A DNA stretch of 64,000 nucleotides, from contig CANLOL010000001.1 of NCBI GenBank assembly GCA_947492905.1, positions 1,714,578 through 1,778,577 of the forward strand, in the 5' to 3' direction. Under the pieces are notes generated by a model that saw only the letters and a list, made by a program, of their open reading frames with translations, searched no databases and was not told the DNA's origin. The position numbers were made by a program, and so were the translations under genes. Of the stretch, positions 28,390 to 31,737 are shown piece after piece; positions within the stretch are counted from its first letter, which is position 1; every line of letters starts with the position of its first letter. The stretch comes from an uncultured Sphingorhabdus sp. (GTDB taxonomy: Bacteria > Pseudomonadota > Alphaproteobacteria > Sphingomonadales > Sphingomonadaceae).

Positions 28390-30282
28390 TTAATTTTCAT
28401 ATAATTTATGATTATATTGCGCCCAAGCGGCCATATCCTTTATAACCCTAATGCGTTCTTTTTCTTCAATATCCAGAGGTTTTTTCTCATTTGGATCTAA
28501 TTTAAGATTATATTTTTCCATTATCTGATGCCGCAAATCATAGATATATTTCATACGCTGATTGGTAATAAGACCAACTTTATTGCCGCGTAAAGAGGAC
28601 ATGAGGTAGACATTATTAGACCAATCTCTCTGGAGAGGGTTAGAGCCTTGCCATTTATAATCGCCGTTAATTCCTGCAATCTCCAGCATGAGAGGGGCAA
28701 AATCGCTTTGATCCGATAGATTGTCATTATCTTTCCCTGTGAAACCTAATGCATCTACCACCTCGCTATTGGCAATGATAAGCGGTATCCGTGTTTCCTC
28801 ATCATATACCGATGAACCATGGGTATAATTGCCATGTTCGCCAAAGGCTTCGCCATGATCGCTAAATATGATCAAAACTGTGTTTTCATATTGCCCATTT
28901 TTTTCTAAATCATCAATAATATTACCAATATGCGCATCAGCATCTTTTATGGCGGCTTTATATTTATTTTGATTACCACTGATATTTATATCTTTAGGAT
29001 AATATGGAAAATGTGTGTCATTCAGCCAAAGTATAGAAAAATAAGGTCTTTCTGATCTATTTTTTTTCCAATCGATAAATTTATTTACGGCACATTCGCT
29101 GGAAATATTATTAATATTCTTATATTTCTTATTCTCAATATCGCGATAAATATCGCAATCAATATTCTCAATATCGAAAAGCTCATTAAAGCCTTTGCCA
29201 TTGATAAATTTATCAACATCTTGAAATGCAAATTCCGCGCCCATGAAGAATGACGTATCATATCCATTATCCCTTAAGATTGAAGGAAATAAGATAATAT
29301 TTTTATCGGCTAATGTTTGGGTTTCCGCTCGATAAGATAGCTTAGGATAGCGCCCGCTTAGAAAGGAAAATATGGCTCTGGTGGATTGTGGTTTTGGGGC
29401 ATGAAATGATGTGAAACTCACGCCATCATTTCTCAATTTGGCTATATTTTTAAGATCAGAATTTATCGAATATGAATGATCATATACGGCTTTGGCTGAT
29501 ACAGACTCCAGAACGATCATGATGATATTTTTCTTCTCTATTGTTAATCCATCATTATCCAGTTTTTCAGAACGATATATATATGATGGATCAATCCGTT
29601 TTGTTTCCATTTCCAATAGGCTGTTGTTTCTGCTGGCCCAAGCAGATGCAATAAGTTCATAAACTGGGTTAGTGATTTCATCTCTAAGTGGTGACTTTGG
29701 AGCAGGAGTTATGAAACCGTGCACCAAATAAATGGGCAGAAGCGCGCCATAAAAATAAACCAGATAGATATGCAAAAATCTTCTCGAAAGACAAAAAGCA
29801 ATAAAGAAAGCTATTATTGATAGTATGAAATAAACGGTGCTATTTGCTGACATGGCAGAAGATATAGCCGTTTGCGGTGTATAGCTTTGCGCTAGATCTG
29901 CATAATATATCCATTGGTATGTTAGCGGTATATTGAGCCAATATAGCGCTATAATATTTCCTGCTAAAATGATGGCGTAGAGGATAGCCATAATCATCAA
30001 TAAGGTTCGGAAAATTTTAGACCCTATTTTCGAATTTTTTAGCGCATATGCTATTATGGATGCGATAATCGAGCATATCGATAAGATTAATATATCATGA
30101 TGGCTGATAAAAACGGCTCTTCTGATAATGTTTAGCAGATTACTCCAAACTAAGGCATCACCAATAATTAGATATATGCGTATCATGAAACCCACTATTG
30201 CTAATGCAAAATATAGCGCGGCAATATGGCGGAAATTAAGGATTAGCTGGTCGCTACTATCATTGTTATTTGAACGAAACAC
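28390..30282 (-). CDS. Membrane sulfatase-family (LTA synthase-like) transferase
   Basis: A 630-residue inner-membrane protein with about five N-terminal hydrophobic helices (to about residue 215) and a large extracytoplasmic alkaline-phosphatase/sulfatase domain. Metal and nucleophile motifs are IIMIVLESVSAKA, a likely nucleophile Thr in KPQSTRAIFSFLSGR, WLNDTHFPYY and IFSDHGEAFGEHGNYTHGS. This layout matches LTA synthase and phosphoglycerol or phosphoethanolamine transferases that decorate lipid or glycan. The gene is clearly more AT-rich (about a quarter to a third GC in sampled lines) than its neighbours, suggesting acquisition. Donor and acceptor are unknown. Confidence 0.82.
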   Translation of the reverse strand: MFRSNNNDSSDQLILNFRHIAALYFALAIVGFMIRIYLIIGDALVWSNLLNIIRRAVFISHHDILILSICSIIASIIAYALKNSKIGSKIFRTLLMIMAILYAIILAGNIIALYWLNIPLTYQWIYYADLAQSYTPQTAISSAMSANSTVYFILSIIAFFIAFCLSRRFLHIYLVYFYGALLPIYLVHGFITPAPKSPLRDEITNPVYELIASAWASRNNSLLEMETKRIDPSYIYRSEKLDNDGLTIEKKNIIMIVLESVSAKAVYDHSYSINSDLKNIAKLRNDGVSFTSFHAPKPQSTRAIFSFLSGRYPKLSYRAETQTLADKNIILFPSILRDNGYDTSFFMGAEFAFQDVDKFINGKGFNELFDIENIDCDIYRDIENKKYKNINNISSECAVNKFIDWKKNRSERPYFSILWLNDTHFPYYPKDINISGNQNKYKAAIKDADAHIGNIIDDLEKNGQYENTVLIIFSDHGEAFGEHGNYTHGSSVYDEETRIPLIIANSEVVDALGFTGKDNDNLSDQSDFAPLMLEIAGINGDYKWQGSNPLQRDWSNNVYLMSSLRGNKVGLITNQRMKYIYDLRHQIMEKYNLKLDPNEKKPLDIEEKERIRVIKDMAAWAQYNHKLYEN

Positions 30283-30447
30283 AGTGTAAAATATCCGCTG
30301 TCAAATGAAACATAATGTAATCACTAATGTTAGCGACTCATAAATCAATGATTAGAGCGTGAGAAAACTGTGTATAATTTGATTATTTCATTGGCTGAAA
30401 ATAATTAAGTAGATGTGTATTAGCGAGAAGGTTAGGAATATTGTGAC

Positions 30448-30642
30448 TTACCCATCGCAAGCGCAGCCTTTACCTTTTTTACAGGCTCTGTCTTTGGCAA
30501 TACAGCTATTGCCGCAAGCTTTTCCCTTTTTACAAACTTTGCAGCAGCTTTGCGCATATAATGGAGAATAGCCGCAGGGTAATAATGTGGTAGAACCTAA
30601 TAATGCTGTTACAGCGAATAACGATACTGCGAATTTCTTCAT
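30448..30642 (-). CDS. Tiny secreted cysteine-rich protein
   Basis: A 64-residue protein with a signal peptide (KKFAVSLFAVTALLGS, probable cleavage after YAQ). The mature domain is about 33 residues with eight cysteines in the order CC-x2-C-x5-C-x3-C-x6-C-x5-C-x-C, and is rich in Lys and Gly. I recall similar CKxCxKGKxCGxxC proteins in many bacteria, usually without a named function. Metal binding or disulfide knotting is inferred from cysteine spacing only. There is no clear ribosome site. It lies just beyond the left copy of the greB-end repeat. Confidence 0.7.
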   Translation of the reverse strand: MKKFAVSLFAVTALLGSTTLLPCGYSPLYAQSCCKVCKKGKACGNSCIAKDRACKKGKGCACDG

Positions 30643-30660
30643 GCTAAAAAACTATCATTA

Positions 30661-30700
30661 TCAATAGCTAATCGTAATAACCTCCCACCATTTCGGACCA
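30661..30700. repeat. Direct repeat, left copy (displaced greB 3' end)
   Basis: Forty bases, 38 identical to 31261-31300. On the minus strand it reads the last 12 codons and stop of greB (GPKWWEVITISY), with one silent change and one Ala-to-Thr change relative to the intact gene. It is not attached to any greB coding sequence. Just beyond it, a 7-bp TTCACTT match to greB reappears after a nine-base offset, hinting that the copy was once longer. Confidence 0.92.
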
Positions 30701-30717
30701 TTTCACTTTCAGTGAAA
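30701..30717. repeat. Perfect inverted repeat at the cassette edge
   Basis: TTTCACT-TTC-AGTGAAA, a 7-bp perfect inverted repeat abutting the left direct repeat and 52 bp before the phosphatase ATG. It has no T tract, so it is not an obvious terminator. It could be an operator for the phosphatase or a recombination-site arm. Confidence 0.6.
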
Positions 30718-30768
30718 CTGTTTGTAAGACGCAGAATAAAATATGCATATTAAGTAATAGGAAAGAAC

Positions 30769-31260
30769 ATGTATTCAGATATATTTTGGATAGAGAATCC
30801 AATAGGTTTTCGTTTGGCAATTATGGCTCGGCCTAGATCGGGTGATTGGTTAGAAGGTGAAGTTGAAAACTGGCATCGAAATCAGATCACTCATATAGTT
30901 TCATTGCTAGAGAATGAAGAAATTCTTGATTTAGGAATTGAAGCTGAGGAGGGTATATGCACTAATCATGGGATTAAATTTTACTCATTCCCAATTGCCG
31001 ATAGAGGAATACCTGATTCTTTCAATGAAACTCTTACATTAATTTCTATACTATCAACATACCTAAAAGATGGTAGTGTTGCCATTCATTGCAGAGCAGG
31101 GATAGGACGGTCATCATTAATAGCGGGTGCTATTTTGATAATGAATGGGATAAGCGCAGATGAAAGTCTGAGACTAATTTCAGAGGCGAGAAATTTGCAA
31201 GTACCTGATACACAAATTCAAATTGATTGGTTGAAAGAATTTGAAAATAAGTTAAAGTAA
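30769..31260 (+). CDS. Dual-specificity / tyrosine-type protein phosphatase
   Basis: A 163-residue cytosolic Cys-based phosphatase. The P-loop is IHCRAGIGRSSL, with nucleophile C108 and R114, and a likely general acid D78 in PIADRGIP. The N-terminal IMARPRSGDWLEGEVENW segment is typical of bacterial DSP-like proteins. An AGGAAAG site precedes the ATG. Sampled lines are 27-45% GC against 50-68% in greB next door. It is the only gene of a 600-bp segment bracketed by 40-bp copies of the greB 3' end; its TAA directly abuts the greB stop on the other strand. The substrate (protein, nucleotide or phosphoinositide-like) is unknown. Confidence 0.85.
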   Translation: MYSDIFWIENPIGFRLAIMARPRSGDWLEGEVENWHRNQITHIVSLLENEEILDLGIEAEEGICTNHGIKFYSFPIADRGIPDSFNETLTLISILSTYLKDGSVAIHCRAGIGRSSLIAGAILIMNGISADESLRLISEARNLQVPDTQIQIDWLKEFENKLK

Positions 31261-31300
31261 TCAATAGCTAATCGCAATGACCTCCCACCATTTCGGACCA
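31261..31300. repeat. Direct repeat, right copy (inside greB 3' end)
   Basis: The intact counterpart of the repeat at 30661, forming the last codons and TGA stop of the functional greB gene. The two copies are exactly 600 bp apart and in the same orientation. Confidence 0.92.
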
Positions 31301-31737
31301 GATGGTAAATTCACTTGGCGCACATCGCCTATTGCGGCGCGGCGCAGAGCGCGGGCGAGGGGACTGCTCCATCCAATACGGTTTAAGTCGGCATCGCTCT
31401 CATCATCACCGACAATTGTCACAAACATTTCATTATCATCTTCATCTGCAAGCGCGACCTGCGCCCCAAAATAGATATGATCTTTGTCGGGTTGATCGGT
31501 TGGATCAATCACATTGGCGGATTTCATGCTTTTGGAAAGCTGGCCCAAGCGATAGTCGATAGAGCGCAATTTCTGTTTGCCATAAATATAATCGCCATTT
31601 TCGCTGCGATCACCATTGCCAGCGGCCCAGCTGACAATTTCAACGACTTTGGGGCGCTCAACACGAAATAATTGATCATATTCCGCCTTGAGCGCTTCAA
31701 AGCCTTGCGGTGTTATAGGGCGATTCTTCTGTTGCAT
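31261..31737 (-). CDS. greB: Transcript cleavage/elongation factor GreB
   Basis: Enters the RNA polymerase secondary channel and stimulates cleavage of backtracked transcripts. The 158 residues form an N-terminal coiled coil (ITPQGFEALKAEYDQLF, WAAGNGDRSENGDYIYGK with the acidic tip, LRSIDYRLGQL) and a C-terminal FKBP-like domain (GAQVALADEDD, IGWSSPLARALRRAAIGD), ending KWWEVIAISY. The length and the ENGDYIYGK tip favour GreB over GreA. It follows slt by 18 bp on the same strand. Its 3' end is duplicated 600 bp downstream around a phosphatase gene. Confidence 0.93.
   Translation of the reverse strand: MQQKNRPITPQGFEALKAEYDQLFRVERPKVVEIVSWAAGNGDRSENGDYIYGKQKLRSIDYRLGQLSKSMKSANVIDPTDQPDKDHIYFGAQVALADEDDNEMFVTIVGDDESDADLNRIGWSSPLARALRRAAIGDVRQVNLPSGPKWWEVIAISY

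Follow-up and report, generated by a model that had tools for sequence, protein, structure and literature searches.

In the window (the whole stretch of DNA analysed here, 64,000 nucleotides), the intact greB gene is accompanied at its 3' end by a single phosphatase gene on the opposite strand and, beyond that gene, by an orphan second copy of the greB end (Table 1). The two copies form a direct repeat of 41 nt with 39 identical positions and an offset of exactly 600 bp, which comprises the last 12 codons and the stop codon of greB plus one base on either side. The first-pass annotation had described this repeat as 38 of 40 identical positions lying 600 bp apart; its existence was confirmed, at a slightly greater length. 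The phosphatase stop codon overlaps the greB-attached copy by one base, its final base being the one with which that copy begins. Searches across the window for 41-mer pairs with at most two mismatches and for 30-mer clusters with at most three, both at a spacing of 41–1000, recovered only the greB-end repeat. Furthermore, the greB-tail pattern (at most three mismatches) matched twice in the whole of its own genome (G000), and the reversed control pattern gave 0 matches.

Table 1. Features at the 3' end of greB, in window coordinates
Feature	Position	Strand	Basis
Entire 600-bp insertion, judged against the empty site	30660..31259 (equivalently 30701-31300)	none	Alignment to G013, flanks colinear
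Cys-rich 64-aa ORF, downstream neighbour of greB in empty sites	30448..30642	-	ORF list
Orphan copy of the greB end (12 codons + stop)	30660..30700	-	Repeat comparison
Phosphatase 5' leader, 68 bp	30701..30768	+	Sequence
Dual-specificity-type phosphatase ORF, 163 aa	30769..31260	+	ORF list, Pfam
greB-attached repeat copy	31260..31300	-	31261 is the final base of the greB stop codon
greB, GreA/GreB-type transcription elongation factor, intact	31261..31737	-	ORF; both GreA_GreB domains by Pfam

The phosphatase was matched to Pfam DSPc (PF00782) with 35.7 bits, just above the cut-off of 33.5. The CX5R motif (HCRAGIGRSS) is intact in the translation, and the gene is predicted to yield an active product. 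The insert has a G+C content of 0.349, compared with 0.438 across 1.26 Mb sampled from the same genome, so the earlier description of a single AT-rich phosphatase gene between the repeats held. The leader contains a perfect 7-bp palindrome (TTTCACT-TTC-AGTGAAA, 30701-30717). As a look for a structured attC site beside the gene, of the kind that marks integron gene cassettes, leader and orphan end together (30660-30768) were folded as single-stranded DNA and scored no better than shuffles (z 0.10). A 24-mer from the leader (at most three mismatches) was found once in G000 and in 0 of 60 other genomes.

A sulfatase-family membrane protein gene (28390-30282, minus strand) lies nearby, inside an AT-rich stretch (28409-30448) that measures 2040 bp here and 66 bp in the relative G013; the corresponding gap against a second relative, G011, is 2112 bp versus 44 bp. 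This stretch is a second foreign insert adjoining the greB unit, and no flanking repeat was seen around it.

The greB site in related genomes

The nearest relatives are G013 (CALLJS010000010.1, uncultured Sphingomonadaceae), with a greB 91% identical, and G011 (CANMXN010000001.1, uncultured Sphingorhabdus sp.), with one 89% identical. The empty site that the first-pass annotation had anticipated was present in both: greB is followed after 18 bp by the Cys-rich gene, and the phosphatase is absent. In G013 a single 41-bp stretch (L090 5739-5779) is the counterpart of both copies in the window, and its flanks are colinear. These empty sites indicate that the 600 bp were gained, or else lost at least twice. 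The 600-bp unit is a laterally acquired, foreign single-gene insertion at the 3' end of greB.

At two positions the greB-attached copy equals G011 and G013 and the orphan copy departs from all three; on the plus strand these changes read C>T and G>A, both of them transitions. These differences fit a spare greB end that would be drifting. The stop codon is TGA in both window copies and TAA in greB of G011 and G013. In an ungapped comparison, greB divergence from the two relatives showed no shift near the 3' end, and one 60-bp block in mid-greB held 21 differences from G011. Neither the shared TGA nor the divergence near the 3' end points to a distant donor of the greB gene.

Searched against 44 other genomes of genus members, the insert DNA gave no matches except to the greB tail of G011 and of G013 and, by chance, to G023; this last match, to the orphan end, was rejected as it sits in an unrelated gene (a methyltransferase by eye). 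The greB loci were then read in 34 of the 36 same-genus genomes among 60 relatives, G002 and G023 being dropped for want of a full greB match. The last 36 nt of greB were sought again, allowing at most 10 mismatches, in as much as 12 kb of downstream sequence, or less where a contig ended, and a repeated greB tail was found in 0 of the 34 loci. Across genome_contigs the greB-tail pattern had one match each in G011 and G013 and no others, and in viral_contigs it had none; 29 stretches of viral contigs tried as carriers of greB relatives were all left unconfirmed. The idea that greB ends are a recurring docking site therefore received no support from these loci, and the proposed search for the 40-mer led only to the two copies at home and the single greB tails of the two relatives. 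An account of greB as an attachment site was likewise absent among the matches listed in an open-access literature search.

In G022, greB is followed after about 150 bp by a DUF559 nuclease gene (L013 1016-1345), and no greB-end repeat was found there. Its position may count in favour of greB as a preferred insertion place. A DUF559-like gene also stands next to the carB start in G027 (L156 1691-1996), and DUF559-like nucleases may favour the same gene edges, greB and carB.

The source of the phosphatase was sought in several collections. No candidate passed in tblastn of genome_contigs (28 stretches) and viral_contigs (2 stretches). Among the 60 relatives, three had a weak match, which was distant from greB or on a separate contig. 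Homologues were found in 6 of 384 other genomes of the class (E <= 1e-12, 30–35% identity) and in seven plasmid records (27–40% identity); phage records gave none at E <= 1e-5. The insert DNA itself matched neither plasmids nor phages, and PADLOC returned no defence system match. A donor with the phosphatase beside greB was not found, the greB position being compared in the three relatives with a weak match. The homologues were also tried as a guide to a mobile unit and set aside: the direct repeats flanking six distant homologues reached no more than 66–87% likeness, none resembling a recent gene-end copy, and the genes next to two of the plasmid homologues offered no clue.

The whole genome contains five Phage_integrase (PF00589) matches, none of which lies within the window, in agreement, for tyrosine integrases, with the earlier statement that no integrase is present. 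Two of the five are in open frames of 303–309 aa, XerC/XerD-like by size, and two are short. The fifth, a full-length integrase, adjoins a tRNA-Thr gene (L099 8092-9522; G000 C1 at about 1.298 Mb); a type I restriction methylase follows at a greater distance, and the region is read as an ordinary island.

Gene-terminus repeats elsewhere in the genome

Similar scars were sought by comparing 438 kb around the window with G013, taking gaps of at least 250 bp and using overlapping alignments as the sign of a repeat. Among 28 such gaps, two showed overlap: the greB insert, with 41 bp, and a 994-bp insertion in G013, with 14 bp, which was imprecise and was dropped. This comparison is insensitive and undercounts scars, since a gap between carA and carB is among the 28 and its repeats were missed.

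In a gene-terminus survey of G000, the terminal 75 bp of 1068 ORFs were compared with the 2.5 kb outside them over 1,257,694 bp. Five direct matches were obtained, and the inverted and reversed controls gave 0 each. The five were the greB end, the carB start, the end of a DUF4126 gene, a shared gene start at 898478 and a pair at 2162150, which was rejected as a scar because it consists of YHS-domain paralogues. A separate search for short direct repeats over the same 1,257,694 bp yielded two further loci, at a Sel1-type ORF and at a probable trxB. Similar surveys elsewhere, with 9-mer seeding, gave 0 matches on G013 C10 (365 ORFs) and two in 400 kb of G005 (358 ORFs), with controls at 0 in both. 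The two G005 repeats were rejected as parts of longer repeats (275 and 317 bp); the proteins there recall Rhs or polymorphic toxins by eye, and three of the ORFs are without a Pfam match. A 57-bp repeat at G013 C10:146716 was likewise dropped as a pair of paralogues.

The carA–carB region of G000 (C1:1916929-1918769; L118) contains four copies of the carB start, 24–45 bp long and including carB's own, with three units of 647, 649 and 500 bp between them. One unit holds a DUF559 nuclease gene (Pfam, 124 bits), another an ORF without a Pfam match and another a lipoprotein-like ORF, also without a Pfam match, for which the copied carB start serves as its own start; the two units without a match are single ORFs in the direction of carB. 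At the same place, G011 has two carB-start copies and a different ORF without a Pfam match, and G013 has the carB start and a DUF559 unit, the latter matched in two pieces. The longest carB-start copy, which precedes unit B, has the Ile codon ATC, where carB of G000, G013 and G011 has ATT; ATC was present in all 20 other genus-member carB starts reached by pattern search. The unit-B copy also has GAT in common with 2 of these 20 carB starts, and GCT, where the copy has its last base, with 17. Its TTC codon matches no carB seen, and the copy is as near G000's own carB (3 differences in 44) as it is to the best other species. The codon pattern suggests that a carB start may have been brought in with the cargo at unit B.

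At the DUF4126 locus (C1:1323093-1324522; L100), an orphan 62-bp gene end (57 identical) lies 851 bp from the gene's own copy, and the repeats enclose a secreted-type ORF without a Pfam match. The locus is empty in G011 and G023, with 35 bp between the flanks (the G023 contig ends 40 bp further on), and in G013 the orphan end and the ORF are present and the DUF4126 gene is absent.

The remaining loci are of a less certain nature. The Sel1-type ORF (C1:956884-958326) has an AT-rich C-terminal part, and a downstream orphan copy of its inner stretch (114 bp, 103 identical) ends differently; it looks like a chimeric gene that may have arisen from the same kind of event. At C1:1328696-1328909, the last 21 bp of a gene (20 identical) are repeated around a 193-bp unit with REP-like sequence, the gene probably being the pyridine-nucleotide oxidoreductase trxB. 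At C1:898429-899289, neighbouring genes have a near-identical 98-bp start, which encodes a signal peptide. The two proteins are alike at 28 of 43 N-terminal positions, with the signal peptide nearly identical, and elsewhere at most weakly (24% over 62 aa), and they may be distant paralogues.

Further inserts of like anatomy thus exist in the same genome at carB and DUF4126, and, less surely, at the Sel1, trxB and 898478 loci. Across loci the repeats are 21–114 bp long, and the longest words they have in common are 4–8 nt, as in shuffles, with 2 of 15 pairs reaching the level of about 3%. Repeats that are unrelated and of varied length are not explained by one recombinase with one core. Of the guess of an unrecognised cassette family, the wider idea of recurring inserts with gene-end repeats on both sides is supported at other genes; greB ends as the docking site are not supported.

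Origin of the insertion

The greB insert may be explained by incoming DNA in which a gene terminus was joined to an adjacent gene and which was integrated at the greB end by single-crossover or illegitimate recombination, an event tolerated with the target whole; we give this explanation about an even chance. The incoming DNA would have carried a greB end joined to the phosphatase gene. Integration at the resident end would most likely have gone through a single Campbell-style crossover, in which a re-circularised fragment recombined in the short stretch of greB-end homology, or through homology-facilitated illegitimate recombination (HFIR). The product would be ordered greB, phosphatase, second greB end and old downstream gene; because greB stayed whole, the event would have been tolerated and the spare end would be left to drift, with neither a dedicated recombinase nor a fixed attachment site needed. 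We infer this route at greB, and the arrival of the gene end with its cargo, from sequence comparison. The explanation is favoured by the empty sites in both nearest relatives and by the five direct survey matches against 0 in each control. Moreover, either single crossover of a re-circularised fragment or HFIR accounts for unrelated repeats of variable length, and the ATC codon of the unit-B carB copy suggests a terminus that came with cargo. Several points argue against it. Repeats of 21–45 bp are short for a RecA-type crossover, the duplications published for E. coli measuring at least 109 bp (PMC3240628). The greB repeat, with its shared TGA, shows no trace of a foreign allele, and the unit-B copy, equally near G000's own carB and with TTC unmatched, speaks against an imported carB start. 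In addition, no donor was found, and only two of the 28 gaps in 438 kb (greB and carB) are known to carry such repeats.

The same gene-end repeats could be read otherwise. The second greB end would be a self-duplicate of resident DNA, in the form of a long target-site duplication, if a staggered break was repaired by filling in or if a replication fork took foreign DNA as its template and then stepped back by 41 bp. Both copies having TGA, unlike G011 and G013, two transitions in the orphan as drift would give and the variable length of the duplications all agree with this reading; against it, the genome has no Ku gene, which makes classical end-joining unlikely, and the unit-B carB copy has the Ile codon of other species. 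We consider a target-site duplication unlikely. Site-specific integration, with the recombinase supplied in trans, is also given a low probability; the 41-bp repeats would then be attL and attR and the 600-bp unit a mini-element or a CIME-like island remnant. Integrase islands usually leave repeats at a gene 3' end, a regenerated whole target, a displaced fragment and an empty site (PMC4383910), and all of these are present at greB. In the collections searched, two features are missing, namely a cognate tyrosine integrase in the window and the same core in other elements: the five integrase matches lie elsewhere, the tail has no further copy in G000, in genome_contigs beyond G011 and G013 or in viral_contigs, no repeated tail was seen at the relatives' 34 greB loci, and similar scars in the genome carry unrelated repeats. 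Of the integration footprint recognised in the first-pass annotation, the foreign single-gene insertion, the displaced greB end and the empty site were retained, and the site-specific mechanism was not.

It is also conceivable that single foreign genes travel in a dedicated cassette system, with a housekeeping-gene terminus as their address, and re-dock repeatedly. The three units between carB-start copies and the different ORF at the same place in G011 point in this direction; against them stand the failure to find a common recombinase or motif, the single unit at greB in a single genome and the low frequency of such repeats among the gaps (2 of 28). We judge a dedicated system improbable. 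A looser version, in which AT-rich foreign genes of a Sphingorhabdus-like lineage carry a 20–110-bp terminus copy and re-dock by homology, forming small arrays such as that at carA–carB with no integrase and with the gene kept intact, is doubtful and should be read as speculation. Overall, with similar scars at other genes of this bacterium, the greB insert probably arose incidentally during DNA uptake, and a site-specific mobile cassette is the less likely reading.

Taken by itself, the greB insert is a modest lateral gene gain; it becomes interesting because such scars recur at further gene termini and because carB has an array of them. As the empty site and the control-backed survey indicate, the scar is one by which single foreign genes enter the chromosome beside housekeeping genes and leave these unbroken; cassette traffic addressed by gene termini is conceivable, at a low probability. 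Should the pattern prove general, repeats of gene termini could be used to follow the acquisition of single genes, and they would caution against taking every gene-end repeat for an integrase attachment site.

Comparison with known systems

Mitochondrial homing-type elements, as at Allomyces atp6, bring a replacement gene end and displace the old one. In contrast to these elements, the greB unit is without an endonuclease, the phosphatase being the only ORF of at least 60 aa between the repeats, although a DUF559 nuclease gene does occur at carB and behind greB in G022. CIME-type remnants bear a regenerated gene and a displaced fragment at their ends. The same marks delimit integrase islands in the Islander account (PMC4383910). 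Unlike islands and CIME-type remnants, the greB unit has no tyrosine integrase in the window and no recurring core, and the repeats elsewhere are unrelated.

An open-access literature search for partial duplications beside transferred genes returned no matching account of the present arrangement. The closest parallels come from recombination of DNA with homology at one end. In E. coli conjugation with such DNA, 56 of 60 clones were by PCR insertions with a duplicated piece of lacZ, and 14 sequenced duplications measured 109–950 bp; the insertions were explained by re-circularised molecules entering through a single crossover (PMC3240628); HFIR in S. pneumoniae, A. baylyi and P. stutzeri is cited in the same report. 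As at greB, foreign DNA in these events is joined beside a homologous gene segment and a duplicated piece flanks it. However, typical HFIR as described there couples insertion with deletion, unlike greB, and the E. coli duplications arose in an engineered system, whereas the greB repeat is 41 bp long and natural (PMC3240628).

Displaced effector ends and orphan immunity gene arrays occur in the T6SS loci of Vibrio cholerae, and orphan Rhs 3' regions are a comparable case; HFIR was proposed by the authors (PMC5361080). There, effector–immunity modules occupy dedicated loci, whereas here a phosphatase and ORFs without a Pfam match lie at housekeeping genes. The two cases share, as far as that report describes them, the entry of a module at a gene end, the shift of the old 3' end downstream and the formation of arrays by repeated insertion (PMC5361080).
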